From NCBI RefSeq assembly GCF_036867195.1, contig NZ_JBAJII010000001.1, positions 1,054,001 to 1,118,000 of the forward strand: a DNA stretch of 64,000 nt, read 5' to 3'. The stretch is from Arthrobacter sp. Soc17.1.1.1 (GTDB taxonomy: Bacteria > Actinomycetota > Actinomycetes > Actinomycetales > Micrococcaceae). Positions 4,348 through 46,324 of this stretch are shown here, piece by piece. Made by a program: the position numbers and the translations under genes. The notes beneath the pieces were generated by a model. The model had not been told where the DNA came from. It saw nothing but the letters and a program-made list of their open reading frames with translations, and made no database searches. Position 1 is the first letter of the stretch. The number at the start of each line of letters is the position of its first letter.

Positions 4348-4418
4348 CAAGTAGTCTTATGGTTACTACGTGGGTGCAAAGCGAGTAGGTGGCGTGCAAC
4401 TCCAGTAAGTGCTACTCG
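4348..4418. promoter_or_regulatory. Cluster of four heptamer sites before the first LAL operon
   Basis: Four matches to CTAC(G/T)(T/C)G in either orientation lie in 71 bases: CAAGTAG 4348-4354, CTACGTG 4366-4372, CGAGTAG 4382-4388, CTACTCG 4412-4418. The first and second face each other, and the third and fourth form a perfect inverted pair. On random sequence one match per roughly 2 kb is expected. The region is also much richer in A+T than its neighbours, as expected of a promoter. The same core recurs upstream of other operons here, so I read this as the operator/promoter of the LAL pair. Confidence 0.5.
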
Positions 4419-4486
4419 TGTAGACGTATGGAAGGCTTTCTAGGCTCGGGGGAACCGCACATTCTTTGAATCCAGGAAGTGTTCCC

Positions 4487-4561
4487 ATGGATGCTCGAAC
4501 CGCTGGCGCAAGTGTCAAACCCTCGTTATTCTCCATCTGCCGCAAGGCGGTGGCGAGATGA
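4487..4561 (+). CDS. 24-aa leader ORF coupled to LAL gene 1
   Basis: ATG at 4487 is preceded by a good ribosome site, AGGAAG (4474-4479), with 7 bases spacing. The ORF ends with TGA at 4559-4561, which overlaps the LAL start ATG (4558-4560) as ATGA. The peptide starts MDARTAGASVKPSLF and ends CRKAVAR, giving a basic C-terminus. No family is recognised. The strong ribosome site belongs to this ORF, not to the regulator gene, whose own upstream sequence is weaker. Translation of the regulator may therefore depend on ribosomes that finish the leader. The second LAL pair has the same arrangement. Confidence 0.5.
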   Translation: MDARTAGASVKPSLFSICRKAVAR

Positions 4562-7221
4562 GCAGACTGGCCGAGGCCCCCTTCTTCGTGGGGCGGGCGG
4601 ACATCGTGGCGTCGGTCGAGGAGGCACTCCTCTCGACCGGGTCCGTGGGTGCGGTCCTGGTGGGTGAGGCCGGCGTCGGCAAGACCGCCGTCATGCAGCA
4701 GGCCCTCACCGCACGGGCCGCGGACCTGCTGATCGTCCGCATCCGCGGCTCCAAGGGCTCCTACCACCAGGCATTCCGGCCGGTGAACTTCCTGCTCTCG
4801 GAACTCGACACGGACGTCGTCGACCACCCGGTCACCGTCCTGCGGGCCGTGTCCGAGCTGCTGAACTTCCAGGCCCGGGGGCGCCGCGTGGTGCTCGCGG
4901 TGGACAACATCGAGTACCTCGACCCGTCCTCCTCCTCGCTCATCACGCAGCTCGTCCTCAACGGGACCGCGAGCGTGCTGCTGACCACGCAGGACTTCAC
5001 CGCCGCGGATCCCATGTTCGCCTCGCTGTGGCGGGAGGGCTCCCTCAAGCGGTTCGACCTCTCGCCCTTCACCGCCGCGGAGGCGCGGGCCTTCCTCGAA
5101 GCCGAACTCGAGGGGCCGGTCAGCGTCGAGTGCGTGCACCTGCTCCTGAGGATGAGCGGGGGCAACGCCCGCTTCCTGCAGGCCTCCACGCGGGCCCTGC
5201 GCGGACGCCGGATCGTCCGGCAGGACGGCACCTGGGTGCTCCTGCCCGGAGGCACCCCCGTCCCTGCCGAGGTCACCGAGGCCGCGATCGGCGTATTCGA
5301 GGAACTGCCCTCCGGCCAGCGCGACGTCGCCCACCTCCTGGCCCTCGCCGGCCGGCTGCCCGTCTCCGCGATGCACGGGCTCGCGGGCAGCACCGACGTC
5401 GACGCCCTCCAGTCCGCAGGCCTCGTGGTGGTCCGCCACGGCAAGCAGGAGGAGGTGGAGCTCGCCGATCCCGTGCTGGGCGCCGGCGCCGTCGAGTCCA
5501 TCGCCGCGCACCGCGCCCAGGAACTGTACGGGCGGCTGGCCGAGGACACCACCCTGATCGCGGCACTCGACCCGGAGCGCCACGCCCGCTGGCTGCTGCG
5601 CTGCCACCATTCGGTGCCCGCGGGCCTGTGCCTGGCCGCCGCACAGTCGGCGAGCGACGACGGCCGCTACTGCGACGCCGTCGAGTTCACCGAGATCCAG
5701 GACCTCCACCGGTCGGACGTGGCCCTCGCGGGCGAGCGCGTCCGGGCGCTCATCGACGACGGCCGCTTCGAGGACGCAGCGAACGCCCTCTCCCTCGCTG
5801 CCCCGCTCCTGGCGGAGGCCGCGCCGGCCGACGCCGTGCGGATGCTCCTCGCCGACGCCGTCCTGCGGAACTTCCTGGGCCTGCGCGGTGCGGGGGACCC
5901 CGTCGCCGATGCGGAGGCCCGCGTCGACGCAGCCGGAGACGCAGCCGGAGACCCTGCCGGGGACACTGCAGGGGATACTGCCGGGGACACGGACGCGCTG
6001 CGCGCCGAGATCATCATCACCCGGGCCGAGCTCGCCTCCCTCGACGGCGAGTACCCGCGCTCCCGCGAACTCATGCAGTCCCTCCGGGCGGCGGCCTACC
6101 CGCTCAGCCCCGAGCAGAAGATCCGCAGCGACGCCCTCCTGTGCGAGGCGTGGGCGATGATGGAGAGCCAGCTCGAGGCCCTCCAGCTCGCGGACGACCT
6201 CGCCGACCGCCTGCAGCACGGCGGCGTGAGCCACCGGACGCGGGAGATCGCCTACCTCCGCCTCATCGCCGTGTACAGCGCGTCGGGCAGCTGGGGTTCC
6301 GGTGCCCGGCGGCTCGGCCTGGACGTCGACCACGGGGAGGCCGCGCACCGCGGGTCCTCCGTGCAGCTCGCCCTGGGACTCGTCCTGGCCCGCTACGGCC
6401 AGCCCGAGGACGCCCTGGGGCTGCTGAAGCCGGCGTTCGACCAGTTGCGGGGACGCGATCCGCACCGCCTCCTGCCCATCGCCGCGGCGTCGATCGCCTA
6501 CTGCCACACCATGAACCGCAACATCCAGGACGCCATCCCGTTCCTCGTCCACGCTGAGCCCTCCGCGGGCGTGCCGTGGATGGTGCGGCGGCTCACCTCC
6601 CAGCTGCAGCTCTCCAGCCTCGGTCTGCGGGAATCGAAGACGGAGGCCGCGCAGCAGCTGCAGGCACTGGGCCAGCGGGACAGGGAGCGCGGGGCGTCGC
6701 TCTTCGAGCTCTCCGCCTTCACCACCGCCGTGCGGCTCGGCAACACCGAGGCGCTGGCCGAGCTGTCCGATGTCGCCGCCCGCGTCCAGGGGCCGTTCGC
6801 CCGGCTCAGCGAGATGTTCGCGAAGGGTGTGGGTCACCGCGATGCCGAGGTGCTCCTGCAGGCCATGGAACTCGCGGCCGCGGCCGGCGACCAGAACTTC
6901 GGCCGCGACGCCGCCCGGTCCGCGCTGAGCGCGGCGCAGGCCCTGGGCAACAAGTCCACGGTGCGCGAGGTGCAGCAGCGGGCGCGGCAGGTCCTCGTGA
7001 ACGAGACCTCCGGCGGCCCGATGTCGCAGCTCGAGTCGCTCACCCCGAGGGAGAGCGAGATCGCCCAGCTCGCGGCGGGCGGCTACGCCAACCGGGAGAT
7101 CGCCGATGTGATGTGCGTGTCCGTGCGGACCATCGAGGGCCACCTGTACCAGATCTACTCCAAGCTACACGTCTCTTCCCGCCTCCAGCTCGCAGAGCTG
7201 CTGCCCACCCCACTGCAGTGA
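4558..7221 (+). CDS. Large ATP-binding LuxR-family regulator (LAL 1)
   Basis: 887 aa, the size expected of LAL/MalT-like STAND regulators. The N-terminal NTPase shows Walker A GEAGVGKT (36-43) and Walker B VVLAVDNIEYLD (111-122). A long middle region of helical, TPR-like character follows. The C-terminal about 60 residues are a LuxR helix-turn-helix: LTPRESEIAQLAAGGYANRE, then SVRTIEGHLYQIYSKL. Residues about 458-477 are five AGD-x repeats encoded by five 12-bp tandem units. It should be a cytoplasmic, ATP-dependent transcription activator; the inducer is unknown. It overlaps the leader ORF upstream and LAL gene 2 downstream (GTGA). From its position beside a polysaccharide locus I infer control of that locus. 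Confidence 0.9.
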   Translation: MSRLAEAPFFVGRADIVASVEEALLSTGSVGAVLVGEAGVGKTAVMQQALTARAADLLIVRIRGSKGSYHQAFRPVNFLLSELDTDVVDHPVTVLRAVSELLNFQARGRRVVLAVDNIEYLDPSSSSLITQLVLNGTASVLLTTQDFTAADPMFASLWREGSLKRFDLSPFTAAEARAFLEAELEGPVSVECVHLLLRMSGGNARFLQASTRALRGRRIVRQDGTWVLLPGGTPVPAEVTEAAIGVFEELPSGQRDVAHLLALAGRLPVSAMHGLAGSTDVDALQSAGLVVVRHGKQEEVELADPVLGAGAVESIAAHRAQELYGRLAEDTTLIAALDPERHARWLLRCHHSVPAGLCLAAAQSASDDGRYCDAVEFTEIQDLHRSDVALAGERVRALIDDGRFEDAANALSLAAPLLAEAAPADAVRMLLADAVLRNFLGLRGAGDPVADAEARVDAAGDAAGDPAGDTAGDTAGDTDALRAEIIITRAELASLDGEYPRSRELMQSLRAAAYPLSPEQKIRSDALLCEAWAMMESQLEALQLADDLADRLQHGGVSHRTREIAYLRLIAVYSASGSWGSGARRLGLDVDHGEAAHRGSSVQLALGLVLARYGQPEDALGLLKPAFDQLRGRDPHRLLPIAAASIAYCHTMNRNIQDAIPFLVHAEPSAGVPWMVRRLTSQLQLSSLGLRESKTEAAQQLQALGQRDRERGASLFELSAFTTAVRLGNTEALAELSDVAARVQGPFARLSEMFAKGVGHRDAEVLLQAMELAAAAGDQNFGRDAARSALSAAQALGNKSTVREVQQRARQVLVNETSGGPMSQLESLTPRESEIAQLAAGGYANREIADVMCVSVRTIEGHLYQIYSKLHVSSRLQLAELLPTPLQ
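5929..5988 (+). repeat. Five 12-bp tandem units inside LAL gene 1
   Basis: Five in-frame units of the form GCNGCCGGRGAC (with small changes) encode AAGD, AAGD, PAGD, TAGD, TAGD. They form a flexible acidic linker in the middle of the regulator and a likely site of length variation between strains. Confidence 0.85.
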
Positions 7222-9935
7222 CGCTCCGGGAAGACGGTTCGGTCCCCCTCGTCGGGACCGAGCGCATCCTGGGTGCGATCGTCCACACACTGTCCCACCC
7301 CGATCTCCACGGGGCACTCGTCATCGGCGAGACCGGCATGGGCAAGAGCGCCATCGCGCGCCGCCTCGTGCCGATCATCGACGGCCAGCACAAGCGGTGC
7401 TTCGTGATCCGGGCGACGTCGAACCTCGCCGACGTGCCCTACGGCTCGCTCGGCGCCTACCTCTCGGACGCCGCGCCGCAGGCACTGCGCTCGTCCCTGT
7501 CCGCCCTCCGGGCGCTCGTCGCCTACCTGAGGGAGGCCTCGCAGGGCCGGGACGCCGTGGTCATCATCGACGATGCCCAGTACCTCGACGATGACAGCAG
7601 CCACATCCTCACTCAGCTCGTGGTCTCGCGGACCATCAAGGTGGTGCTCTTCTCCAACGGCATCCCGCCGCGCTCGGGCGAGCTGTTCTCCCTGTACACG
7701 GACGGGTTCATCAGCCGCGTGGACCTCACCGGGCTGTCCGACGCCGACGCCGGCAAGTTCTGCGAGAGCGTTCTCGGCGGCCCCGTGACCCGGGGGGCCG
7801 AGGCCTACTTCGCCCGCCAGAGCGCAGGGAACCCGCTGATGCTGCGCGCCCTGCTTGACCACGCCTCGGCCACGGGGGAGCTGGTGCTCCGCGACGGCGT
7901 GTGGTGCCTCACCGGACGCTTCCACCCGCCCGGCCCGCCGCTCACGGACCTCGCGAAGACCCTGCTGCAGGGGCTCAGCGAGCAGGAGCGGACGGCGTAC
8001 GAGGCCGTGTCCCTCAGCGGCGGCCTGACCGCGGCACGCCTGGCGCGCCTCGTGGAGGATGCCGTGGCGCAGCAGCTGCTGCGGCGCGGGCTCCTGCGCA
8101 GCCCCGGCTCGCCCACCGGACTGCTCCGGGTGGCGCACCCCATGATGACGCGCGTGATGCGGGCGCTCGTCCCGGCCGGCCGGAGCGCCGAGCTGCGCCG
8201 GCAGGTGTTCGACGACGATGTCACGCTGCCTGCCCTGCAGGACGGGCGGATCGAGTACCTGAACTGGGCCCTCGACGCCAACGTGCCGGTCCCGGCCACG
8301 ATCCTCCTCGAGGCTGCCCGGACGGCGGCCCACGTCTCCCGGCCCGAATCGGCCCTCCGGTTCGCCGGCGCCGCGAAGGCCGGGGGAGGAGACGCCGCAT
8401 CGGCCGTCGAGGAGGCCCGCGTCCGGGTGACCCTGGGCGAGTATGCGGTCGCCGTCGCGATGCTCGACCAGGTGCTGGCCGGTCCGGCGCGGCCGGGCAC
8501 GCTGGCCGACGCCGCGACGCTCAAGGCCCTGGCCTGTGTGCGGCGCGGTGACGATCCGGACACCCTCCACCGCATCGCGGAAGCGTGCGCGGCGCGGCTC
8601 GAGGCCGCCGGAGCGGGGAGTGCCGGCGCACCACCGCCGGAAGGCTCCATCGACGAAGCTGGCTCGGCGCCCGAGGACCTGACGCTGCTCCACCTGCTCG
8701 GCTGGGTCCTCGAAGGGCAGTTCGACACGGCCCGCACGCACCTGGAGGCCCTGGACACCTCGCTCTCCTCGCAGCAGGCCGGCCCGCCGGCCCACGTGCC
8801 GGTGCTGGTGCTCACGCTGCGCGGCATGATCGACGGCGCCCTCGGCCTCTCCGACGCGGCGCACGCCGAACTGCGGGCGGCCCTCGAGAACGTGGACAGG
8901 TCCCAGGGGCGGCTGGAGCATCTTCGGGCGCCCATCGTGGCCCAGTACGTCTCCGCCCTCATGGGGTCGGGCGACTTCTCGACCGCCACCGAGGCGATCG
9001 ACGAGTACCGCCGGCAGCCGCTGGTGGATTTGAGCTACGTCAGCGGTGCCCTCCCGGTGCTGCAGGCCGTCCTGGAGGTCCGCCGCGGCAAGTACCGCGC
9101 GGCGCTGCGCATCCTCGTGCCGGCCCTGGTGTCGCTGCGGCAGGCGGACAGCGAGATGCTGCTGCCCTACGCGCTCGGTGTCGCCGCCTGGTGTGCGCAT
9201 TCGCTGGGGGAGAAGGACGCCGCGGACGCCTTCGAGCAGGAGTTCAACCAGGTGCCGGGCACCGGTAGCCGCCCCATGCTGCTCGTGGCCCGCGCCTACC
9301 TCGCCGCCGCGAACTCCGGCAGCTCCGAGGACGGGCACGATCTCGATGCGCTGCGGGACCTGGCCGAGGCGGCAGGGTCGGCGCCGTTCCCGGCCTGCGA
9401 GAAGGACACCCTCGAACTACTACTGGCCCTCGGGGACACAGCACGGGCCTGGCGCCTCGCGGAGCTCGCGGACAGCTTCGAAGGGTCGGAGGCGCAGGTC
9501 CTCTCGCAGTACGCCCACGCGCTCACCGCCGCGGATCCCGACGCCCTGCTGCTGGCCGCCGATAAGGCGGAGAGCATCCAGAAGGTCCCGCTCGCCGCGG
9601 ATGCCTCGGCCCGGGCCATGCGCCTGTATGCGGACAAGGGCGATGTGAGGGCACGCCGGCTCGCCCTGCGGGCCATGCGCCGGCGCCAGTCATTGCTCGA
9701 GGGCGTGCTGCCGCATGAGGAGGGCGATACGCGTACCTCCCACGAGCTGACGTCGAGGGAGCGGGAGATCGCGAAGCTCGCGGCCGAGGGTGCGACGAAC
9801 CGAGCCATCGCGAGGATCCTCGTGCTGTCTACTCGCACGGTGGAGGGGCATCTCTACCGGATCTACGGGAAACTCGGCATCACCACCCGCGAGGAACTGA
9901 CCGCCGAGTTCACGAACGACCAGGATCAGCGGTGA
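7218..9935 (+). CDS. Large ATP-binding LuxR-family regulator (LAL 2)
   Basis: 905 aa. The start is GTG 7218, which overlaps the LAL 1 stop as GTGA; reading further upstream in this frame crosses the LAL 1 coding region and is not meaningful. Walker A is GETGMGKS (37-44) and Walker B VVIIDDAQYLDDD (from about 114). The LuxR helix-turn-helix is at the C-terminus: LTSREREIAKLAAEGATNRA, then [18 protein letters not shown]. It is a paralogue of LAL 1, 3 and 4 with low overall similarity outside the motifs. Tight coupling to LAL 1 suggests that the two are made in fixed ratio and may act as a hetero-oligomer, which is inference. Confidence 0.9.
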   Translation: MTLREDGSVPLVGTERILGAIVHTLSHPDLHGALVIGETGMGKSAIARRLVPIIDGQHKRCFVIRATSNLADVPYGSLGAYLSDAAPQALRSSLSALRALVAYLREASQGRDAVVIIDDAQYLDDDSSHILTQLVVSRTIKVVLFSNGIPPRSGELFSLYTDGFISRVDLTGLSDADAGKFCESVLGGPVTRGAEAYFARQSAGNPLMLRALLDHASATGELVLRDGVWCLTGRFHPPGPPLTDLAKTLLQGLSEQERTAYEAVSLSGGLTAARLARLVEDAVAQQLLRRGLLRSPGSPTGLLRVAHPMMTRVMRALVPAGRSAELRRQVFDDDVTLPALQDGRIEYLNWALDANVPVPATILLEAARTAAHVSRPESALRFAGAAKAGGGDAASAVEEARVRVTLGEYAVAVAMLDQVLAGPARPGTLADAATLKALACVRRGDDPDTLHRIAEACAARLEAAGAGSAGAPPPEGSIDEAGSAPEDLTLLHLLGWVLEGQFDTARTHLEALDTSLSSQQAGPPAHVPVLVLTLRGMIDGALGLSDAAHAELRAALENVDRSQGRLEHLRAPIVAQYVSALMGSGDFSTATEAIDEYRRQPLVDLSYVSGALPVLQAVLEVRRGKYRAALRILVPALVSLRQADSEMLLPYALGVAAWCAHSLGEKDAADAFEQEFNQVPGTGSRPMLLVARAYLAAANSGSSEDGHDLDALRDLAEAAGSAPFPACEKDTLELLLALGDTARAWRLAELADSFEGSEAQVLSQYAHALTAADPDALLLAADKAESIQKVPLAADASARAMRLYADKGDVRARRLALRAMRRRQSLLEGVLPHEEGDTRTSHELTSREREIAKLAAEGATNRAIARILVLSTRTVEGHLYRIYGKLGITTREELTAEFTNDQDQR

Positions 9936-9948
9936 AAGCCGGCATGAC

Positions 9949-10029
9949 CACGTAGTTTCGAGCTGTGAGTAGGTAGTGGAACAGGTATCTCCGGGTACCC
10001 GCGGGAAAAAGACAAGCCCCTCGTACTCG
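9949..10029. promoter_or_regulatory. Heptamer-containing region after LAL 2
   Basis: CACGTAG (9949-9955, reverse of CTACGTG), TGAGTAG (9966-9972) and GTACTCG (10023-10029) lie within 81 non-coding bases. No annotated gene starts nearby. If this is a promoter it would serve the candidate RNA described at 10050-10279. Confidence 0.35.
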
Positions 10030-10049
10030 TGAGAGGTATGCAAGCGGTA

Positions 10050-10279
10050 CGTAATGTTGCATGTGTTGGAGCAAGGGTGGTCCAGCAGCAGGGCTCATGC
10101 CCTCACCCGAGTGAAGGCGGGTCCCGGACTGGGGCCAGCGGCATAGGAGTCTTCTTGAGACCGAGACTTCGTCCCCAGCTGTCGCTGGCCCCTTCCTCCG
10201 GATTCAGGGCAACCTGACCAGGGCGGTACGAACGCAGAAGAAGGGCCGGAGCGAATGCTCCGGCCCTTCTTCTGCGTTC
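10050..10279 (+). ncRNA. Candidate small RNA (unproven)
   Basis: About 200 non-coding bases between a heptamer-containing region and a strong terminator. They can fold: GGGGCCAGCG (10131-10140) pairs with CGCTGGCCCC (10183-10192), and AGTCT/AGACT nest inside. The readable 62-codon frame through it (GTG 10029 to TGA 10217) has no recognisable protein character. No known RNA family is recognised. This is suggestion only. Confidence 0.25.
10230..10279. terminator. Strong bidirectional hairpin terminator
   Basis: Two perfect 23-base arms (10230-10252 and 10257-10279) around a GAAT loop; the core is GGGCCGGAGC against GCTCCGGCCC, with AAGAAG/CTTCTT flanks that give a T-rich side in each direction. 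It lies between the converging LAL 2 / candidate RNA transcript and the leftward LAXTG gene, so it can end both. Confidence 0.85.
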
Positions 10280-10305
10280 CAGGTGGTGCGAGGTGCTACT
10301 GGTTG

Positions 10306-10944
10306 TTACGCCTCGACGGCGCGACGGCGGGCAACAACGATGCTGCCGGCACCCAGGCCGAGTGCACCGATGCCGGCGGCGCCCCAGAGGACCATCGCGG
10401 AATCGATACCGGTGTTGGCGAGGCCGCCCTTGCCGGTGGCCGAGGTGGTGCCGGAAGTGGTCCCACCCGTCGTACCGCCGGTGGTGCCACCGACAGCGTT
10501 CGCGGTGTCGACGACGACGGTAGCCGTGATCGGAGCGGCAGGCGTTCCGTCAGCTGCAGCGGCGGACAGCGTGTAGGTGCCTTCCTCGGTCAGCTTCACC
10601 GAGTAGGAGAATCCGCCCTTGGCGTCAGCAGTGGTGGTGTCGGTGAGGACGATCTGGTTGAGGACGATCAGACCGCCGCGAGCCGAAGCCGCTCCACCGG
10701 CGCCGAAGCCGGCAGCTGCAGGGGTTCCAGCGGTGCGGTCGACGGAGATGTTGAGCAGCTCACCGGGGGTGAAGTAGCCAGCGGGGCCTGAGAAGACGAT
10801 GGTCTCGCCCGGAGCGGCAGCGGGATCGCTGACGGTGCCGGTAGGAGCGGTGAGGTAGTTGGTGTTCGGAGCGGCCTGTGCCGCACCTGCTCCGAGAAGT
10901 GCGAATGTACCGGCGATGGCCAGGACGGAGGCGGTCTTGCGCAT
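10306..10944 (-). CDS. Secreted surface protein with LANTG sorting signal
   Basis: 212 aa; ATG 10944 with GGGGAG six bases upstream. It has a cleavable signal peptide (residues 1 to about 24, ending AAQA), one extracellular Ig-like or adhesin-like domain, then a Gly/Thr linker (GGTTGGTTGGTTSGTT). The C-terminal wall-sorting signal is LANTG (175-179) followed by a hydrophobic helix and the basic tail ARRRA. The LAXTG form is the one used by class E sortases in actinobacteria; no sortase gene is in this window. It has its own upstream region with three phased heptamer sites and a strong terminator downstream, so it is probably abundant and separately controlled. Confidence 0.8.
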   Translation of the reverse strand: MRKTASVLAIAGTFALLGAGAAQAAPNTNYLTAPTGTVSDPAAAPGETIVFSGPAGYFTPGELLNISVDRTAGTPAAAGFGAGGAASARGGLIVLNQIVLTDTTTADAKGGFSYSVKLTEEGTYTLSAAAADGTPAAPITATVVVDTANAVGGTTGGTTGGTTSGTTSATGKGGLANTGIDSAMVLWGAAGIGALGLGAGSIVVARRRAVEA

Positions 10945-11057
10945 GATGGCTCCCCAAAAGGCTGAAAGTGAGACGGGTGAAAAACTGTGAAGTGACCGGG
11001 CTTTCGTTCCCCAAGAGCCCTGAGCCGACTTTCCAGACCCTATAGCAATCGCGCCGA

Positions 11058-11107
11058 TTACTCGAACCGGCGCTCATGTTACTTGGACTTGGAAAAGCTA
11101 CTACTTG
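11058..11107. promoter_or_regulatory. Three phased heptamer sites before the LANTG gene
   Basis: TTACTCG 11058-11064, TTACTTG 11079-11085 and CTACTTG 11101-11107, all in the same orientation, with starts 21 and 22 bases apart, that is about two helical turns. They lie about 115-165 bases upstream of the leftward gene start. Direct repeats at helical spacing fit binding by a multimeric activator. Confidence 0.5.
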
Positions 11108-11210
11108 AAACCTACCAAGAAAGAGCAGGTAGTGGAAGATTCAAGACTGTCCTGCTCGAGATGTAACGCAGTGTTCATCTGGGCGGTTCGCGAAGCTTGA
11201 GCCCCGGCCC

Positions 11211-13112
11211 TCAGTCGCAAGACTGCAGGCCTTCTGCCGGCAGGATCACGTCAGCGGGGTCCTGCACCGTGGGGGTCACATCGAGGACTGGCTCTGTCTC
11301 CTGGACCACCTTCGAGAAGTCCATTTCGAGGGTCGTAGTCTCGCCTGGGCCGAGCTCGGTGGTAAGGATGCCTACTGGCCTGTTCCCATGGAGGAAGGAG
11401 CCGATGGGTGTATCCGTTCCGTTGATCCGCGCCCGCTGTAGTACCGACTGGGCAGGGCCGTAGCTCACCGTATTGGTCCTCACCCGTCCTGGGTCGATAC
11501 CGAACACTCCAGCGCCGGTCACATACTCGGGCAGGCTCGTCGCCGCGTCCGCCGGCGCGGTATTCGCCAGGCTGATTCGGACGGTGTACTGCGAGTACCC
11601 GTCACCAACGCAGCTCTTCACGAGCTGGACGGTGCGGCGCACGTAGTAGTCCATCTTCGCGCCAGTGCCGTCATTGAAATACACACCGAAGGCAGCTCCG
11701 CCTACCGCGGGCCCGAGCGCGGCTCCGGCGAGGTCGGTCTGGCCAAGAAGCTCCTGCTCCTCGGACGAAGCGGACCACAGGTAGAGCCGCCCCTGGTCGG
11801 CGCTCGTCACCAGAGCTTCGATGAGTTGCGTGCCATCTCCCTGGGAGTTGGTCAGAGCACCGAACACCTTCCCCGCGACAGCTGCGAAGTACGCGTCCTG
11901 CAAAGCCGGTTCCTTGATCTGCGCGTAGACGTCCGAGAGGAGGGTGGGCACCACGTTGGTGGAATCAAGCGAGGTGGGTAGTTGCGTCTCGGAAAGCAGG
12001 GAACCGATCGTTGCATCACCGAAAGTGCCGAGTTCCACCGGTCCGGTGGCCCACAGGATATTGGCCAATACCACCGGGTCCAGTGCAATGACGCCGTCAA
12101 TACGCGAGTCCGGATGGCGGTCCTGCCACATCCTTTGTGCGGTGGAGGCGGCGGTTGGGAAATCGGGGGTGAGGTTGACGCTCTGCATGAACGTGGCCAT
12201 CCGATTTGAATAGATCTTCTCCTGCTCGGGGTCCACGTCGAGTGGGGGGTTGAACCGACCCAGTTCCCCGGCACTGCCCTGGTCAGTGAGGGAGATTCGA
12301 CCGTCCTCGACAGTTAGGACGGCCAATGCTCCGGAGATGCCGCCCGTCGCACGAACTTCGGCGCTGTTCTGCACCAGCACCAAATAGTTGCGGGGGCTGT
12401 CCGCACCAAGCATGGCGGGCAGAAGCTGACCGGCGCGGGAAGAGTCGTTTAGAGGCCCTCGCACGTCATCGAGCCGCTCAACTGCGTCCTGAATCGGCCC
12501 GGCGATTTGCGGTAGAAGCGCCGATCGGTCGATTCCATTGAGGCGACCGTAGGACAGGTCGACCGTGGTAGCAGCGGCGGAAAGCGTGGGGGCAATTTCA
12601 GCCAAGGGAGCGGTATCGATGCGCCCCTCGACGGGGGTGAGCGCGTCCCAATCCAGAGCGGCGATTTTATCCACCATGGGCGCGATCGCCCGGTTGACGA
12701 TGTCGTCAGCCGAAGCTGTTACTTCGGAGACAGCGCTGAAATTCTGGCCGACAAATGGGAGGATGCCAGCGGCTTTCCACACCGGGTCGGTACCGGCTGC
12801 ACGAGCTGCATTGGTGTGCTCTGTCAGTTCAGCCGACACGGCTTTGGCTCGGCCGGTGTCACGAGCAACGACAGCCTCCTGCAGATCGGGCAGTAGGGAC
12901 ATACTGCTCTCGAGATGACTGCGCACTTGCTGCGCACGGTGCGCCAGCCACCCACCGGCAGCCACAAGCAGTACCAGCACAATGATGGCGCTCGCCACGA
13001 GCGCACGGGAGCCCTTGCGGCGAACGCCCTCTTGCGCTCGCGCGATCCTTGGAGGTTGCGTCGACGCCTCGGAGCTCGCGGACCCAGCGTTGATGGAGTA
13101 TCCGTCAGTCAT
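11211..13112 (-). CDS. DUF4012 membrane-anchored protein of the polysaccharide locus
   Basis: 633 aa from ATG 13112 with AAGGA seven bases upstream. A short cytoplasmic N-terminus and one membrane helix (about residues 37-58, LVASAIIVLVLLVAAGGWLA) are followed by a large extracellular part. The segment LLPAMLGADSPRNYLVLVQN, the run EVRATGGISGA and DGVIALDPVVLANIL are characteristic of DUF4012, found with exopolysaccharide clusters in actinobacteria. The role is unknown; attachment or polymer handling outside the membrane is plausible because LytR-CpsA-Psr-like proteins occupy similar positions. It is the last gene of the leftward sugar-transferase/BY-kinase group. Confidence 0.8.
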   Translation of the reverse strand: MTDGYSINAGSASSEASTQPPRIARAQEGVRRKGSRALVASAIIVLVLLVAAGGWLAHRAQQVRSHLESSMSLLPDLQEAVVARDTGRAKAVSAELTEHTNAARAAGTDPVWKAAGILPFVGQNFSAVSEVTASADDIVNRAIAPMVDKIAALDWDALTPVEGRIDTAPLAEIAPTLSAAATTVDLSYGRLNGIDRSALLPQIAGPIQDAVERLDDVRGPLNDSSRAGQLLPAMLGADSPRNYLVLVQNSAEVRATGGISGALAVLTVEDGRISLTDQGSAGELGRFNPPLDVDPEQEKIYSNRMATFMQSVNLTPDFPTAASTAQRMWQDRHPDSRIDGVIALDPVVLANILWATGPVELGTFGDATIGSLLSETQLPTSLDSTNVVPTLLSDVYAQIKEPALQDAYFAAVAGKVFGALTNSQGDGTQLIEALVTSADQGRLYLWSASSEEQELLGQTDLAGAALGPAVGGAAFGVYFNDGTGAKMDYYVRRTVQLVKSCVGDGYSQYTVRISLANTAPADAATSLPEYVTGAGVFGIDPGRVRTNTVSYGPAQSVLQRARINGTDTPIGSFLHGNRPVGILTTELGPGETTTLEMDFSKVVQETEPVLDVTPTVQDPADVILPAEGLQSCD

Positions 13113-13163
13113 GCAAAAGTCCTTCGTGCAGTGGGCGTGAGACCAGGGGAATGTAATGGCAGG

Positions 13164-14609: not shown

Positions 14610-14666
14610 AGTTCCCCGTACCCGTACCTGTACCCCGGAGCACGTCGCCTACAAGCGACATGCTGA

Positions 14667-16127
14667 TTATTTGGTTTGAGACGGAACCCCGAAGATCCGC
14701 TCATCGAAGTCAGAGGGAGCATCCTTATTGGATCGTCGGGTGACTGGTGAAGCATCGTCCATAGTGGACGGTTTCACCGAATCGTACGAATAGTAGCTGT
14801 ATGCGTAAGCATCAGGCCCCTTGCTAGGAAGGAGGTTGATGACGACGCCGAGCAGGTCAGCGCTCACCATGTCCAGGTTCCCAAGTGACTTCTGCAGGTC
14901 CGGCAGCCTCACCTTGGACGAGCCGATGACCAACACGACTCCACCTACCTGCTGCGCAAGTACTGCTGCATCGGTGACTGGAAGGAGGGGAGGAGCATCG
15001 ATGATGACCGCGTCGAACTTCTGCTCAAGCCGAGTAATAAGCTGCTTCATGGCGTCAGATCCCAGCAATTCACTGGGATTCGGTGGGATCTGCCCAGCTG
15101 TCAGGATGTACAGCTCGTCCGCCCCCCAAGGCTGAAGCAGATCCTCAACGTCGGCTCGGCCAATCAAAGCTGTGGTAAGTCCTGCATTCCGCTCGAGCCC
15201 CAGGTATTCATCCACGCGAGGGCGCCGCAAGTCAGCATCTACGAGTACTACTGACTGGCCGCCCTGAGCGATCGCGATCGCAAGGTTTGTGGCAGTCGTG
15301 CTTTTGCCTTCCCCAGGCAATGAAGACGTGACCAGGACCGCTTTGGACTTGTGGCTTACATGCGCAAACTGCAGGTTGGTGCGAATCTGTCGGAACGACT
15401 CGGCGCGAGGGCTCTGGGCCGGGGCCTGCGTCAACAGCGGTTTTTTCTGTGCGTCGCTGTCGAAAGAGATGCCACCAAGAAGCGGAGCGTCACTGACCCG
15501 GCGAAGGTCAGATTCACCTCGCACCCTGGTATCGAGCATCGTCCGCAACACCGCGACGCCCACGCCCACGGCAAGCCCTACAAGGAGCCCTAGCACGATG
15601 TTCAAACGTGTGTTTGGCGCTGAGGACTCAGAGGGCGCAGTCGCGGGTGTAATCACAGTTAGATTGACGGGTGAAGTTCCACCCTCGGCGGGGCTCTCGA
15701 GCCCTCCTACCGACTCTACGAGGCTGTCCGCAGTCGCCTGCGCAATAGCGGCCGCCTGCACAGGCGACGTATCATCCACAGAGATCGTGATAATGACGGT
15801 GTTGAGGTCAGCGGTGGCAGTCACCTTACGCGCCAGTTCAGCCGCCGTGATGTCCAGGCCCAACGACTCAACGACCGGCTGAAGTACGAGCGGCTCAGCC
15901 ACCGTTTCTACGTAGGACTGCACACGTGCTTGCGTGAAGGTGTTGCCCTGTTGCAGATCTTGTACGCTTCCCGAACTTTGAATCGCTACGAACAGCTTTG
16001 TCTCAGCGGTGTAGGTCGGACGGATGGCGAAGGAAGCAACGGCTCCAACGATTAGGCCGACGACGGCACAGACGAGGATCAGCAGCCAGTTGCGACGCAG
16101 GATCCGAAGATAGTCGTTCAGCTCCAA
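14667..16127 (-). CDS. Wzz-type chain-length / BY-kinase protein
   Basis: 486 aa from TTG 16127, chosen because GAGAGG lies six bases upstream. A Wzz domain is flanked by two membrane helices (about 13-35 and 170-195). The bacterial tyrosine kinase domain has Walker A SLPGEGKSTTA (about 266-275), Walker A' VVLVDADLRRPRV (about 290) and Walker B VIIDAPPLLPVTDA (about 375). A Tyr cluster near 445 (YAYSYYSYDS) is the expected autophosphorylation site. It controls export and chain length of Wzy-type polysaccharide at the membrane; the counteracting phosphatase is at 23501-24085. Confidence 0.93.
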   Translation of the reverse strand: MELNDYLRILRRNWLLILVCAVVGLIVGAVASFAIRPTYTAETKLFVAIQSSGSVQDLQQGNTFTQARVQSYVETVAEPLVLQPVVESLGLDITAAELARKVTATADLNTVIITISVDDTSPVQAAAIAQATADSLVESVGGLESPAEGGTSPVNLTVITPATAPSESSAPNTRLNIVLGLLVGLAVGVGVAVLRTMLDTRVRGESDLRRVSDAPLLGGISFDSDAQKKPLLTQAPAQSPRAESFRQIRTNLQFAHVSHKSKAVLVTSSLPGEGKSTTATNLAIAIAQGGQSVVLVDADLRRPRVDEYLGLERNAGLTTALIGRADVEDLLQPWGADELYILTAGQIPPNPSELLGSDAMKQLITRLEQKFDAVIIDAPPLLPVTDAAVLAQQVGGVVLVIGSSKVRLPDLQKSLGNLDMVSADLLGVVINLLPSKGPDAYAYSYYSYDSVKPSTMDDASPVTRRSNKDAPSDFDERIFGVPSQTK

Positions 16128-16213
16128 AGGAGACCTCTCTAGATGCTTGTTGTGCTACGAAGCCAACAGGCAACGCAACCGAAGTGCCACTGAGGCAGGG
16201 TTATTGGAAGTTT

Positions 16214-17179: not shown

Positions 17180-17180
17180 G

Positions 17181-18206: not shown

Positions 18207-18250
18207 CAATCCACTACTTCCTGTCTGCGGCCACCTGCGCCCAAGCGCCG

Positions 18251-19381: not shown

Positions 19382-19454
19382 GAGGGTTTGCCCTTTCCGG
19401 CTGGCGAATTTTGATTTGTGTCCATGTGCATAAGTAGCGGCATTGCAAATTGAC

Positions 19455-20690: not shown

Positions 20691-20732
20691 CAATTGTTAT
20701 CCTTGGAGGCGAGAGTGGATCTCACACTTGCG

Positions 20733-22353: not shown

Positions 22354-22355
22354 CC

Positions 22356-25549: not shown

Positions 25550-25651
25550 GCCGGTGCTCCTCGCGGAAGGGACTGATCCGAGGATGACGCTAGCGAGACC
25601 CGGAAGACTCCCAGTGAGCGCAGGCTGGGACTAACTGAACAGTCGGTGAAC

Positions 25652-27039: not shown

Positions 27040-27050
27040 GCAAGCAACCG

Positions 27051-27635: not shown

Positions 27636-27728
27636 GCGAATCAGGCGAGGGCGCGTCCCACCTACCCTTCAGGTGACGCGCAAGCTGCGAATAGCTAGCG
27701 ACCACCCACGGCAGATGACGGCTCGAAG

Positions 27729-29123: not shown

Positions 29124-29340
29124 ACAGCGGCCAGGTTGCAGTCTGCGGCGAGCTTCAGCGTGGTGGTGCTATCCCGGTAGTTCTTCGGAGATAGGCGCCG
29201 GAGGTTGCCGCTGGGTCGCCCTGCGCGAGCCAGATGTACAGCCCAAGGACAAGGATGAGCGCGAGAATGATCGCAACGTTTCGCTGGAGTTGCCGCGTCG
29301 CCCAACTCAGTGCTGGGACGTCTGCTCAATCTGAGGCCAT
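29120..29340 (-). pseudogene. Remnant of a small one-helix membrane protein
   Basis: Reading left from ATG 29340 gives MASD, then TGA at codon 5 (29326-29328), then a good membrane segment RNVAIILALILVLGLYIWLA. A frame change about 30 codons later gives a plausible tail (SPKNYRDSTTTLKLAADC) ending at 29120. There is no usable start codon after the TGA. It overlaps the end of the beta-helix pseudogene. Possibly a holin-like or other phage remnant; identity is not established. Confidence 0.35.
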
Positions 29341-29380
29341 GCTGTCAGAATAGCCGGCGGCCCTCATCTAGGATTGCCGA

Positions 29381-31578: not shown

Positions 31579-31841
31579 AACTTCCCCAATGCTCGAGACC
31601 TAGAAGGATTATGCCCCGCCGGGAGCCTTGCCATAAATCCGGTTTGTGTGACAGCGATTGGAAACGAGGTAGAGGCTTAGCTGAACGGTGCCCTTGCCCT
31701 GAGCCTCACGCTGAGCGCTTCGGACGTCACCCTTTTCGGCACCGCTACGCTCGCAGTATTCTGTCGGGCGCACCGTTTTCCGGCTCTTGGGACAACAGGA
31801 CGATCGGCGCGGTCTTGATATCGTCCGCTTGCGCGTCGGCT
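31579..31841. other. Intergenic DNA
   Basis: 263 bases between two leftward genes. I see no gene, terminator or heptamer site. The string CCATAAATCCGG at 31632-31643 recurs at 33165-33176; its meaning is unclear. Confidence 0.4.
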
Positions 31842-32876: not shown

Positions 32877-33510
32877 CGCGCTACTGTTTGAGAGACCATT
32901 TGCGGCGACAGTACGCGGATGGCCGCCTGACCGTGGCGTCTTGCGGATTCCTTATGTCAGCATTTCGCCTCTACCCACCATGAAACTGGTTCAGCTCATT
33001 GTTCGACTCGCGTAGTCATCGAATACGGCTTCGCACTCGTTGGAACACCAGGACTTGCCGGGACTTGCGGCGTTGCACCAGCCGCATATCTTGGAAGGCG
33101 GCGGCTCGCTGGCCCACCAGTATTTGATGCTTTGCATGAGACCCATGGACGGCATCACACCCGCCATAAATCCGGCTTGCTTATATCGGCACGCAGCTCA
33201 GACGCGGACCGCTAGTGGTTCGAATCGATTTCCTGGTATCCCGAACTTGCTTCAGGACTCCGAAACATCAGCGTTCTGGCAGACGCTATAAAGAGTGAGG
33301 CCGATGGGCACGCTGTTCTCGTTGCCCCGCCTGTCTTCATGGAACCTGCAGGTTCGTGATCGCCAATCGCCTCGTGCTCCGAGACGCGTGAGGTACTCCA
33401 TGTTATCCGTAATGACACCGCCCGCCCGCTGGCATTGGAGCCTGCAGCGGAGAAATAGGCGGCGACGAAGCCGGCCTAGGGGCACCTAGCACATCTGCCC
33501 TGCCCGCCTT
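32877..33510. other. Long gap before the truncated LAL copy
   Basis: 634 bases. The only credible reading frame is a 58-codon Cys-rich ORF at 32991-33167 (listed separately). The remainder, 33168-33510, has short frames on both strands without recognisable protein character. It may be decayed DNA next to a duplication boundary. Confidence 0.45.
32991..33167 (-). CDS. Possible 58-aa Cys-rich zinc-knuckle protein
   Basis: ATG 33167 to TGA 32991. The peptide contains CGWCNAASPGKSWCSNEC, that is C-x2-C-x9-C-x3-C, followed by EAVFDDYA. This resembles small treble-clef or zinc-ribbon proteins in which CxxC is followed by WCSxxC and an aromatic. There is no good ribosome site, so expression is uncertain. 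The four-Cys arrangement is unlikely by chance in unconstrained DNA of this length. Confidence 0.4.
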   Translation of the reverse strand: MAGVMPSMGLMQSIKYWWASEPPPSKICGWCNAASPGKSWCSNECEAVFDDYASRTMS

Positions 33511-33828
33511 CTCCGCGCGCCGGTACTCGCTCCGGGGCGAGGACTACTTGCGTCAGCGAGCGCTCCCACCGCGATAACGGCGCACAATCAAATGGGATTC
33601 GGCGAAACGACCTGGTCGACGAAGCAACGGTCGGGGCGGTCGCCCGCGCAGGGCGGCCGGCGGGGGATTGGTTATGGCCCTGCTGATGGACGGAGGGGAC
33701 CCGCCGTCATGACCGGCGACTACATGGGTGCCTGGCCGCTACTCGAGCGGCCGGGTGAGGTTCTATCGATCATGACGACTCTCGCCGCCTCCAGCTCGGC
33801 CGGCGTGCTGATCGTTGGCGCACCCGGC
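33511..33828 (+). pseudogene. Truncated duplicate of the LAL 3 promoter, leader ORF and N-terminus
   Basis: Aligns without gaps to 46240-46557 (constant offset 12,729), about 85% identical by my count. It includes the heptamer sites, a 45-base block identical to 46324-46368 (33595-33639), the whole 12-aa leader ORF (33674-33712, MALLMDGGDPPS) and the first 40 codons of the regulator from ATG 33709. Similarity stops inside the Walker A motif (APG), where the frame is lost. Differences concentrate in the coding part. It is a relic or a deliberate decoy/leader copy of the second LAL operon. Confidence 0.85.
33523..33550. promoter_or_regulatory. Heptamer pair in the truncated LAL copy
   Basis: GTACTCG 33523-33529 and CTACTTG 33544-33550, starts 21 bases apart, exactly as before LAL 3. 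The third site of the intact copy has decayed here. Confidence 0.4.
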
Positions 33829-33949
33829 AGGCAAGGTCGAGATACGGCGTCGGCATCGTGCTCTTCTGCGGGCTGGTCGATGGAAACGCGTTTCACATTG
33901 TCTCGTCCGGTTCGGCTGGAATTCGTGAGGCCGCCCCTACACTGAGCCC

Positions 33950-35050: not shown

Positions 35051-35060
35051 GGAACCGGAC

Positions 35061-35891: not shown

Positions 35892-35898
35892 CGGGGCG

Positions 35899-37077: not shown

Positions 37078-37082
37078 GGCCT

Positions 37083-38459: not shown

Positions 38460-38463
38460 GGCG

Positions 38464-43774: not shown

Positions 43775-43870
43775 GAGGTGCTCCTCATTGATTGAAATCC
43801 CCAGGATGGGCGCCCGGATCATCCACGGGCTTCCAATCAATGACGCTACTTATCCGCGACCGGCGGCACA

Positions 43871-43930
43871 CGAGTAACTGTTACCCGACGTACCCGGCAG
43901 GGTACTTACCACGTAGCAGTGGGCTACTGG
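43871..43930. promoter_or_regulatory. Heptamer sites upstream of the second polysaccharide operon
   Basis: CGAGTAA 43871-43877 (reverse TTACTCG), CACGTAG 43910-43916 (reverse CTACGTG) and the near match CTACTGG 43924-43930, in the 163-base gap before the leftward GT2 gene. This is the same core as before the LAL pairs and the LANTG gene. Confidence 0.45.
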
Positions 43931-43937
43931 TGCGCGG

Positions 43938-46070
43938 TCAGAAGTCGATGATCCCCTGGTCCACCAGTTCAGCCCTCAGCGCGGGGGCGACCTTCAGCTG
44001 GTAGGCCGGTGTCATGTGGACGAGATCGCGCTTCGTGGGGGTGGTCCCCACGAAGCTGGGGCACCAGTCTTCCGCGCAGAACCAGAGTTCCGAGTCGATG
44101 AAGGAGGCGCCGACGGTGTCCGCGAGCTCCCGCTCGGCGGTGGCGAAGGTGCGCCACTGGGGATCGATCGTGCCCGCGCAGTAGGACGGTTCGGCGATCT
44201 TCGAGTAGCAGTCGGTGATGTCCGTGAACAACGGCGGCGGTGTGAGGAACACCACACGGTCCACGGAATCGCTGAACCGCGCCAGGATGGCCTGCATGCT
44301 CTCCTGCCACTCCTGCGGGGTCATCGGCTGGTCCCAGGACGCGGGGAAGCGCGGCTCGTAGGTATTGGCGATGAAGACCACGTCCGGTTCCAGCTCGTTG
44401 ATGGCGTCGACGGCCTGGGACTTGCGGTCCTCGCAGGCCTCGACCACCTCGGGCTCGGGGTTCTCGATCAGCAGGTCCGTGAACGTGCAGCCGAACGTGC
44501 CGAGGCTGGTCACGTCCCAGCCCTGGTCCGTACCGAGCGCCTCCCGCAGCGGGGAGACCCAGGTCATGGCGATCGAGTCGCCGACCACGACGGCGTGGCG
44601 GTCGGCCGCCGGGTCGCCCCAGGTGCAGTCCTCGACCACGAGGGGTCCGATACCGCCGCACTCCGTGACCTCCGGCGGGGCCTCGGCTCCCGCCATGGCC
44701 TCGTCGATGGTGGGCGTCAGGTCCGGCCACTCGGTGCTGCCCAGGGCGGTGCGGATCTGCTCCTGCAGGTCCGCGGTCTCCGGCGACACGTCCTCCGGGA
44801 GTGCGCCCACGAGCTGGATGTCCTTCTGCTGCGCGGGGACGAACGGCAGCGCGGCCGCCGTCACCAGGACCGTGGCCGCTGCGCCGACCGCCGCCCGCTT
44901 GAAGCCGGCGCCGAACGCCGTCGTCCCGGTGGTCCGGCCACGGCCGGACAGCCACGCGGACCGGCGGACGGGGTCCTCGACGAGGTGGAACGAGAAGACG
45001 GCCGCCAGGAGCATCGCCGCCGTGCAGCCGAGGTAGAACAGCGCGGACCGTTCCACGAAGACTGCTCCCGCGAAGATGATCACCGGGAAGTGCCACAGGT
45101 AGAGCGAGTAGGAGATATTCCCCAGGTATCCGCTCACCGGGTTGGTGAGGGGGACGATGAACCGGTGCCGGTCCGCGCCGGTGCCGGCGAGGATGACGAG
45201 GACGGTGCCCGTCACGGGCAGGAGGGCCCAGGGCGCGGGGAACGCGGACGAGGCATCGATGAGGAACAGGCTGCCGCCCATCATCGTGATCCCGAGCCAG
45301 GCGATCACCGGGCGGACGGCATCGGGGAGGCGGCTACAGAGGGGGGCCGCGAAGGCCAGGGCGGCGCCGGCCCCCAGTTCCCAGGTGCGCGAGAAGGTGG
45401 AGAAGTAGGCACGCGTGGGGAGCGCCTGCGTCTCCCACAGCGCCCAGGCGAGCGAGGCGAGGGAGATCAGCCCGATCACCACTCCCGCACCGAGGCGTGC
45501 GTGGTGGCGGTCCCCGCCCCGCCGGACCACCAGGGTCAGCACGAGGAGCATGACGGCCGGCCACGCGAAGTAGAACTGCTCCTCCACGGACAGGGACCAG
45601 AAGTGCTGCAGGGGCGAGACCGGGCCGGCGGCCCGGAAGTAGTCGGTCCCCGCAGCGGCGAAGCGCCAGTTCGCGCTGAAGAGCGCGGCGGCGACGCCGT
45701 CCTTCACCGTCTCCACGAAGCGTGCCGCCCCGAAGACGAGGAAGGCGCCGAGGAGCGTCACCGCGATCGCGGCCGTGGACGCGGGGAGGATCCGCTTGAT
45801 GCGGCGGCGGTAGAAGTTCCCGAAGGAGATGCGGCCCGTCTTCTCGTACTCGCGCAGGAGGAGTCCCGTGATGAGGAAGCCTGAGATGACGAAGAAGATG
45901 TCGACGCCGATGAATCCACCGCTCGGCCAGCCGACCAGGTGGTCGAGGACCACCACGATCACGGCGACGGCCCTCAGGCCCTGGATGTCCGGTCGGAACC
46001 GTGCGGGAGCAGCTGCGGGCTCGGTGCGATCGAGCGCACGGCGCCTCAGGGAAGGAAATGCGGATCGCAT
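43938..46070 (-). CDS. OafA/YrhL-type acyltransferase with C-terminal SGNH domain
   Basis: 710 aa; ATG 46070 with AAGGG upstream. AT3 half: FRPDIQGLRAVAVIVVVLDH with the active-site His, GGFIGVDIFFVISGFLITGL, FYRRRIKRILPA, FWSLSVEEQFYFAWP, GYLGNISYSLYLWHFPVIIF. The C-terminal SGNH domain (from about 475) has AVVVGDSIAMTWVSPL and the catalytic pair in KRDLVHMTPAYQLKV. Such fusions O-acetylate surface glycans: the membrane half passes acetyl across and the extracellular half transfers it. It lies between the second operon and LAL 3 with its own 5' gap. Confidence 0.95.
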   Translation of the reverse strand: MRSAFPSLRRRALDRTEPAAAPARFRPDIQGLRAVAVIVVVLDHLVGWPSGGFIGVDIFFVISGFLITGLLLREYEKTGRISFGNFYRRRIKRILPASTAAIAVTLLGAFLVFGAARFVETVKDGVAAALFSANWRFAAAGTDYFRAAGPVSPLQHFWSLSVEEQFYFAWPAVMLLVLTLVVRRGGDRHHARLGAGVVIGLISLASLAWALWETQALPTRAYFSTFSRTWELGAGAALAFAAPLCSRLPDAVRPVIAWLGITMMGGSLFLIDASSAFPAPWALLPVTGTVLVILAGTGADRHRFIVPLTNPVSGYLGNISYSLYLWHFPVIIFAGAVFVERSALFYLGCTAAMLLAAVFSFHLVEDPVRRSAWLSGRGRTTGTTAFGAGFKRAAVGAAATVLVTAAALPFVPAQQKDIQLVGALPEDVSPETADLQEQIRTALGSTEWPDLTPTIDEAMAGAEAPPEVTECGGIGPLVVEDCTWGDPAADRHAVVVGDSIAMTWVSPLREALGTDQGWDVTSLGTFGCTFTDLLIENPEPEVVEACEDRKSQAVDAINELEPDVVFIANTYEPRFPASWDQPMTPQEWQESMQAILARFSDSVDRVVFLTPPPLFTDITDCYSKIAEPSYCAGTIDPQWRTFATAERELADTVGASFIDSELWFCAEDWCPSFVGTTPTKRDLVHMTPAYQLKVAPALRAELVDQGIIDF

Positions 46071-46251
46071 GGGGGCCCTTAGGGTCGGTAACGGCCGCTG
46101 AAACCTGCCGTGTCGTCGGTAATGCTAGCGCAACGCCCTGAAGGACCGGGGAGAGGACGGCGGGACCGCCGGTGCGTCCGGGCACCCGCCCGGTCCCGCT
46201 GCGGCGGAGGTGGCGCAGCCCCTGCGTCCGGCCGAACGACTCCGCGCGCCG

Positions 46252-46324
46252 GTACTCGCTCCGCGGCGAGGACTACTTGTTCGGGAGAGCGCTCCCACTG
46301 CGATACCGGCGAATAATCGAGTAG
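46252..46324. promoter_or_regulatory. Heptamer sites before the second LAL operon
   Basis: GTACTCG 46252-46258 and CTACTTG 46273-46279 (starts 21 bases apart), then CGAGTAG 46318-46324. The first two are preserved in the truncated copy at 33.5 kb. An uninterrupted 45-base stretch identical in both copies follows at 46324-46368 and contains the dyad CGACCTGGTCG. Confidence 0.5.

Follow-up and report, generated by a model that had tools for sequence, protein, structure and literature searches.

A conserved promoter box and a structured RNA with a start-site-complementary loop: a candidate circuit linking LAL regulators and polysaccharide genes in Arthrobacter

Introduction

What might connect the genes for LAL-type regulators with the surface-polysaccharide genes that adjoin them? 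The question is raised by a 64,000-nucleotide stretch of Arthrobacter sp. Soc17.1.1.1 (assembly GCF_036867195.1, contig NZ_JBAJII010000001.1, forward-strand positions 1,054,001 to 1,118,000), here called the window. A preliminary description of it had proposed that a recurring heptamer, BTACKYG in either orientation, is an operator shared by these genes and read by the LAL regulators. We find that conservation extends beyond the heptamer to a larger unit, set at a fixed distance from a -10 element, and that one of the promoters so built precedes a conserved structured RNA. Judging from sequence, we infer that a LAL-type activator probably turns on LAL1, a polysaccharide cluster and the RNA, and that the RNA would in turn pair with translation starts.

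A long box at a fixed distance from the -10 element

The regulator genes and promoter elements concerned are as follows (nt, nucleotides; ORF, open reading frame; HTH, helix-turn-helix).

4558..7221, + strand: LAL1, AAA_16 ATPase and GerE/LuxR HTH
7218..9935, + strand: LAL2, AAA_16 and GerE
46438..48924, + strand: LAL3, AAA_16 and GerE
48924..51569, + strand: LAL4, AAA_16 and GerE, start approximate
4412..4446, + strand: LAL1 promoter, box CTACTCGTGT, 18 nt, -10 CTAGGCT; the top matrix match (27.96)
4348-4354 (-), 4366-4372 (+) and 4382-4388 (-): heptamers upstream of the LAL1 proximal box
4487..4561, + strand: 24-codon leader ORF, its stop sharing the bases ATGA with the LAL1 start; the same in L012, L013 and L014
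10023..10057, + strand: RNA promoter, box GTACTCGTGA, 18 nt, -10 GTAATGT
9949..9955, - strand: heptamer CTACGTG 5' of the RNA promoter
43843..43877, - strand: promoter of the second polysaccharide cluster, box TTACTCGTGT, 18 nt, -10 GTAGCGT

As is typical of LAL regulators, LAL1-LAL3 and the LAL4 frame combine an N-terminal AAA/STAND ATPase with a C-terminal GerE HTH at about 900 amino acids, and both AAA_16 and GerE exceed their Pfam cut-offs in all four. The conserved promoter unit consists of NTACTCGTGN, then exactly 18 nt, then TAnnnT, and is present at three window promoters, namely those at 4412 (+, LAL1), 10023 (+) and 43877 (-). TAnnnT is the -10 type of the primary sigma factor. Inspection by eye found the -10 to be ordinary and no TTGACA-like -35 at these box promoters. 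A conserved operator abuts or overlaps the -35 position at a fixed distance from the -10, the arrangement of class II activator promoters. Given the promoter at 43843..43877, the glycosyltransferase there would start downstream of the first possible start of its ORF, 43840.

Conservation was followed in a genus sample of 38 genomes, the window's own included. A LAL1 homologue was found at E<=1e-60 in 35 of them, and 30 loci from these 35 made up the LAL1 upstream comparison. Heptamers reach 4.83 per kb within 400 nt upstream of these homologues against 1.03 per kb in genes. The element [CG][TC]ACTCGTGN, exactly 18 nt, CTA(G/C)NCT lies upstream of 18 of the 30, all of them among the 19 homologues at least 34% identical to LAL1 (the exception is L021). 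At the RNA loci of the genus, 24 of 28 of which could be anchored and counted, box-18-TAnnnT is found upstream in 20 (pattern slightly loosened; 3 of the 20 about 290 nt upstream) and is lacking at L061, L062, L071 and L080. Footprinting in related Arthrobacter and the fixed 18-nt distance to the -10 thus support the proposal that LAL and polysaccharide promoters have a conserved operator in common.

A matrix was built from 24 non-redundant promoters of relatives, leaving out the window's own sites; it scores 28.0 at LAL1, 23.6 at the RNA promoter and 21.3 at 43877, the next site in the window reaching 11.9. The LAL1 and RNA promoter matches are homologous to training promoters; that at 43877 is not, and neither is the promoter of another RNA copy, which lies outside the window (19.0). 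A count of the strict form TACTCGTGW over the 4.23-Mb genome gives 10 sites, as against 33 for its reversed control; three lie in the window, and only those three have TAnnnT at 18 nt. This count covers the strict form, not the CACTCGTG form, of which at least one promoter lies outside the window, and the long box was defined partly on the very sites later scored.

The preliminary description had also suggested helical phasing. In the 18 genus LAL1 promoters there are 33 reverse boxes in total, 14 of them 30-31 nt, 11 of them 63-64 nt and 6 of them 84-86 nt from the proximal box, with a phase coherence of 0.29 at 10.0 bp, 0.78 at 10.5 and 0.90 at 11.0. For the forward boxes (n=12) the coherence at the same periods is 0.37, 0.35 and 0.73; because the genomes are kin to one another, neither the phasing values nor the other counts given here are independent draws.

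Between the LAL1 promoter and its gene, the ATGA overlap couples the short leader ORF (4487-4561) to LAL1, an arrangement kept in three close relatives.

A structured RNA downstream of LAL2

The gap after LAL2 does hold an operator site, as the preliminary description had it; what had been missed is that the site belongs to the promoter of a conserved structured RNA. In three relatives (A. ruber, A. sp. B0490 and A. cheniae) the corresponding gap contains a long conserved non-coding block amid diverging surroundings, with an inverted repeat visible by eye behind it. The features in the window are the following.

10063..10280, + strand: structured RNA gene, both ends predicted from the -10 and the inverted repeat
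10131..10193, + strand: RNA core, model R1, with a 13-bp P1, an 8-bp P2 and GUCCCCAGC unpaired in the model; 87.4 bits
10156..10162, + strand: P2 hairpin loop UGAGACC, GAGACC being invariant in 28/28; GGTCTC on the - strand at 10157-10162
10230..10279, both strands: perfect 23-bp inverted repeat, a probable two-way terminator

The RNA stretch folds far better than shuffled sequences (z -6.84, the 23-bp inverted repeat included), and its own promoter together with the inverted repeat predicts a free-standing RNA at 10063..10280. The conserved core is 63 nt long; RNAalifold, unlike model R1, pairs part of the conserved GUCCCCAGC. Core loci were aligned as A1 (24 of 28 loci, 17 distinct rows) and A2 (all 28). 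Under our structure, 97.7% of A1 cells are paired versus 90.6% in shuffled alignments, 40 cells show a change on both sides versus 13.8, and the covariation score is 0.423 versus 0.274, values which 0 of 500 shuffles reached in each case. Three of five measures therefore beat every shuffle, compensatory changes beyond controls of the kind that mark a conserved structured RNA.

A known Rfam identity was considered and rejected: in a scan of the whole window with Rfam 15, tRNA alone rose above its gathering cut-off, and the 17 matches up to E 10 in the gap after LAL2 were all under gathering, most of them on the inverted repeat. Among the titles of the papers searched, none dealt with this RNA or with this box.

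Distribution of the RNA and its linkage to LAL genes

A covariance model finds the RNA in 37 of the 38 genus genomes (27 by DNA similarity) and, in a scan of 295 genomes of the family (Micrococcaceae) run under stricter filters, in 143, which represent 17 of 32 genera; a single genome has as many as 6 matches. In the family, RNA and a LAL2 homologue occur together in 140 genomes and are both absent from 136; the RNA alone is found in 3 and the LAL alone in 16. A reach beyond the family was rejected, as the 11 positives among 198 genomes of the order all fall within the window's own family.

Linkage is also evident in position. Of 20 stretches compared, 18 of them from relatives, 19 contain the RNA, and in 13 of these 19 it follows a LAL match (by tblastn) on the 3' side at a distance of no more than about 1 kb (L116, L118-L124, L127, L128, L131-L133). 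In nine (L118, L121, L123-L126, L128-L130) it is directly upstream of Bac_transf on the same strand, and in L133 it is further off. In eight of the nine the RNA is inside a leader ORF of 60-122 codons, L129 being too close to its contig end; the eight leader ORFs start beside GGTCTC (seven) or GATCTC (L126), and all their stops overlap a start codon of the Bac_transf frame. In L124 (8494-8671) a tandem pair of RNA cores, 117 nt apart, shares a single leader.

The window's own genome has a second RNA copy about 21 kb before the window (G000:C1:1032654-1032715, L113; 48.6 bits). It carries two UGAGACC stretches, is preceded by GCACTCGTGC, 18 nt and GTACTGT, and follows a TatD-like gene (204.8 bits against an NCBIfam cut-off of 206); the gene after it was read by eye as ksgA, an identity not confirmed. 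Weaker copies lie some 18-30 kb before LAL1 in several relatives, for example G004, G005, G006, G014 and G022. In G012 and G016 (L192, L193), RNA promoters stand upstream of the second LAL genes, and RNA and LAL genes thus alternate along the locus.

Complementarity between the RNA loop and translation starts

The loop UGAGACC is complementary to GGUCUC, since GGTCTC is the complement of GAGACC. The surface genes on which this bears are these.

14667..16127, - strand: Wzz/tyrosine autokinase gene (wzz)
16130..16135, - strand: GGTCTC at the wzz translation start, complementary to the RNA loop
13164..14609, - strand: exopolysaccharide polyprenyl glycosylphosphotransferase (Bac_transf)
11211..13112, - strand: DUF4012 gene, with GGTCTCA at 13138-13144 upstream of its start
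31595..31600, - strand: GGTCTC upstream of the GDSL lipase start
32892..32897, - strand: GGTCTC upstream of the acyltransferase start
10306..10944, - strand: surface gene (called LANTG in the preliminary description); InlK_D3 match only, under cut-off

GGTCTC stands at the wzz start in the window, A. ruber and B0490 and, among close wzz orthologues (68-100% identity), directly before a TTG or GTG start in 12 of 17. Three of these orthologues (window, L041, L042) had been viewed beforehand, which makes the fresh test 9 of 14. Leaders of LAL1 homologues with the promoter contain it in 12 of 18: in ten (L016-L019, L022-L027) directly at an ATG, either LAL1's own or that of a short leader ORF, in L028 slightly inside a leader ORF, and in L020 elsewhere, with GTCTCATGG in the leader-ORF position. 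In other genera it occurs within 260 nt before the RNA core in 9 of 16, seven times beside an ATG. GGTCTC is the best-shared 6-mer across these three sets, the runner-up being the overlapping GTCTCA with 4, 12 and 5; the sets were picked after GGTCTC had been noticed in them by eye. Conserved seed complementarity to starts on other transcripts, as at wzz, would suit an antisense small RNA, with the reservation that the sets were partly chosen by eye.

Of the 33 starts examined in the window, 4 have GGTCTC nearby, those of DUF4012, wzz, GDSL lipase and acyltransferase, versus 0.86 expected. The best loop duplexes have energies of -16.5 (GDSL lipase gene), -15.3 (a glycosyltransferase) and -12.5 (DUF4012). 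Start codons throughout were chosen by us rather than taken from annotation.

A second candidate seed is provided by the conserved GUCCCCAG strand of the RNA, most of which TTGGGGA complements. UUGGGGA has six sites in the window, three of them in leaders, and one more would count as a leader site if the start of the glycosyltransferase at 43.8 kb lay downstream of that site. This seed stays a lead, because UUGGGGA overlaps the G-rich Shine-Dalgarno sequence. TTGGGGA occurs twice in the surface-gene leader (10957-11014), also in L041-L043, and once at 43774 (-), near the start of the glycosyltransferase of the second cluster.

Heptamers across the window and the LAL3 region

All sites of the preliminary description are present where it placed them. 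BTACKYG has 84 matches in the window versus 52.4 expected, a number to which 0 of 100 shuffles get; the computed chance rate is one per 1.2 kb, higher than the one per 2 kb first supposed. Gaps make up 6,217 bases (9.7% of the window) and hold 21 of the 84 sites (binomial p=4e-5), the other 63 falling inside genes, which corresponds to 3.38 per kb between genes versus 1.09 per kb within them. Against shuffled gaps, with a mean of 7.0 and a maximum of 15 in 300 trials, the intergenic enrichment holds. The gene list behind these figures consists of ORFs picked by hand, with family searches up to about 58 kb.

Seventeen of the gap sites lie in the six stretches tested for the clusters of the preliminary description, two more (32911, 33009) share the gap of the cluster at 33.5 kb, and the remaining 17 gaps hold 2 versus 3.6 expected. 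With 500 shuffles per cluster, the four heptamers at 4282-4557 and the three at 10945-11210 were equalled in none; the three at 46071-46437 gave P 0.018 and the three at 33400-33949 P 0.038. For the pairs at 9936-10305 (P 0.066) and 43841-43937 (P 0.166) the loose heptamer alone is not significant.

11058..11107, + strand: three heptamers 5' of the surface gene, spaced 21 and 22 and reversed relative to the gene
33511..33828, + strand: truncated second copy (86% identity) of the promoter and 5' gene end of LAL3
46252..46324, both strands: three heptamers 5' of LAL3, with a weak layout (CTACTTGTTC, 18 nt, CGATACC)

The heptamers at 33523-33550, counted earlier as a separate cluster, lie inside a truncated and degenerating copy of the LAL3 promoter region (33511-33828); they are therefore not independent and we no longer treat them as a cluster of their own. 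The preliminary description names five settings for its six clusters, so that no role is clearly tied to these heptamers. Upstream of the surface gene (10306-10944) the three heptamers are reversed, and the forward box-18-TAnnnT layout is absent.

Discussion

A key outcome of this analysis is that the LAL1 gene, the RNA and the second polysaccharide cluster share one promoter layout. The heptamer would be the core of an activator site. At these three promoters one site occupies about -41 to -32 and ends 19 nt ahead of the -10 hexamer, the position of a class II activator; at LAL1, extra sites lie upstream, the reverse ones roughly on one helix face. A site so placed, in a promoter that has an ordinary -10 but lacks a TTGACA-like -35, is consistent with a protein activating from beside polymerase. 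The likeliest reader would be the LuxR-type domain of a LAL protein, for which the LAL proteins are natural candidates because of their own promoter, the shared locus, the co-occurrence and their LuxR HTH, and LAL1 would therefore be autoregulated. The same activator would drive an RNA of about 215 nt, whose UGAGACC loop may pair with GGUCUC(A) beside the wzz start codon and near some other surface-gene starts and, in many relatives, also at the first start of the LAL1 mRNA. As GGTCTC adjoins or overlaps the site of ribosome binding, the simplest effect of pairing would be to block initiation, and the circuit would then activate transcription and brake translation, with the RNA as a delayed brake within it. 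Outside the genus, this RNA element lies in cis, in the leader before Bac_transf.

Several observations weigh against this circuit. The promoter element is absent from all 11 LAL1 homologues of 31-33% identity, and from all but 4 of 20 upstream regions of second-pair LAL genes in relatives; two of those four are RNA promoters. On this account LAL3-type promoters, which the preliminary description had included, are rejected as conserved targets, and the weak layout at LAL3 itself is outside the 15 best matrix matches of the window. The covariance model found no RNA in the 16 LAL-bearing family genomes mentioned above. Two measures of covariation in A1 do not stand out, namely the 8 pairs with a double change, a number reached by 38 of 500 shuffles, and the 18 further pair types, reached by all 500. 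GGTCTC is missing from 5 of the 17 close wzz orthologues (L141, L144, L148, L149, L150), from 9 of 10 distant wzz homologues (present in 1) and from the LAL1 leaders of the window's own genome, L012-L015 and L029. Near window starts it ranks only 154th of 1192 6-mers, and in a simple duplex-energy ranking of the 33 starts wzz is outside the top 8 for the loop. Taken with the cross-genome counts, these results show a complementarity that is strong between genomes and modest in this genome.

It is tempting to speculate further that this is a new family-level RNA under LAL control in two forms, a free trans RNA and a cis element in a translated leader ORF. One loop, UGAGACC, would read one start-site code, GGUCUC(A) next to the start codon, common to LAL regulators, the chain-length kinase and the initiating-transferase leader, closing a feedback loop in the synthesis of surface polysaccharide. 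We advance this wider view tentatively and stop short of calling it probable.

Perhaps, instead, the RNA acts in cis as a leader element or binds a protein and is no trans antisense at all, so that the GGTCTC complement matters only in the same transcript. The nine stretches from other genera with the element directly before Bac_transf speak for this, as do the eight leader ORFs that begin beside GGTCTC or GATCTC and end on a start of the Bac_transf frame, and the tandem copies in L124. We nevertheless regard it as somewhat unlikely, because the RNA of the window and of L041-L043 appears free-standing by eye, followed by an inverted repeat and a convergent gene, and because GGTCTC is conserved at wzz, a different transcript.

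The box, for its part, might be read by another protein, be it some other regulator of the LuxR/NarL type or an alternative sigma factor with ACTCGTG as its -35, the LAL genes being targets and not readers. Its spacing to the -10 is as rigid as that of a -35 element, and the genome has other GerE proteins, with six further matches that cover the GerE region alone. We think this doubtful: the match between RNA and LAL occurrence is nearly one to one, the additional boxes found 5' of LAL1 in either orientation fit an activator better than a sigma factor, and the -10 resembles that of the primary sigma factor.

That the conserved core is instead a translated leader peptide is very improbable. Open leader ORFs do cross it in eight of nine loci, all eight ending on the Bac_transf start, and their translations are alike around the core; yet paired changes alter the encoded residues (by eye), in A. 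ruber a one-base difference right ahead of the core puts the reading frame out of register with that of the window (by eye), and of three window ATGs preceding it the first lies across the -10 and opens a frame that terminates within the core, while the frames of the other two end before reaching it. Chance and base composition in the AT-richer gaps can hardly account for the heptamer clusters, even with 63 of 84 heptamers in genes and two clusters not significant by themselves, given the threefold figure in gaps over shuffled gaps (21 versus 7.0) and the positions kept between species at LAL1 and the RNA promoter.

If the proposed circuit of LAL activator and RNA is true, the LAL regulators of these actinobacteria gain a defined operator, target genes and an RNA partner, and the wiring of LAL pairs to adjoining polysaccharide genes is explained. 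It would also add an RNA family without an Rfam 15 match, present in 143 of 295 family genomes, whose short seed is testable by single compensatory changes. A family employing a single element both ways, in cis as well as in trans, would lend itself to studying how riboregulators switch mode.

Known systems offer partial parallels. The heptamer operator of NarL is TACYYMT. NarL/LuxR operators resemble the sites described here in being TAC-led heptamers for a GerE/LuxR HTH, single or paired and in either orientation; the window box differs in its extended form, CTACTCGTG, and its rigid 18-nt distance to the -10, and its reader is putative. The AbsR2-type LAL family NF050132 is the best NCBIfam match of LAL1-LAL3, with 100.2, 78 and 73.2 bits; as these lie far under the 850-bit cut-off, we do not file the three as AbsR2 equivalogs. 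EAR is the structured leader RNA of Bacillus eps operons. By description only, it is likened to our RNA as a structured RNA in polysaccharide operon leaders; it differs in belonging to another host group, and the window RNA is also predicted to be free-standing, with a loop complementary to start sites.

Among actinobacterial systems, Ms1 is a conserved RNA found by synteny, and Arthrobacter is named in a table of that paper (PMC9130861). Ms1 adjoins HAD hydrolase, oxidoreductase, Fic and CpaE genes (PMC9130861), whereas the RNA described here adjoins LAL, prs, pth and Bac_transf. On that comparison, an Ms1/6S-like identity is rejected, given the other gene neighbourhood and no Rfam match at gathering score in the gap. 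A parallel for the box is PimR, a SARP-LAL protein whose operator consists of direct repeats of the heptamer CGGCAAG with 4-nt spacers (PMC5930380). There too, heptamers stand at an actinobacterial regulator promoter and are bound by a protein with LAL homology; PimR binds via its SARP domain, to another heptamer with another spacing, and serves antibiotic rather than polysaccharide genes (PMC5930380).

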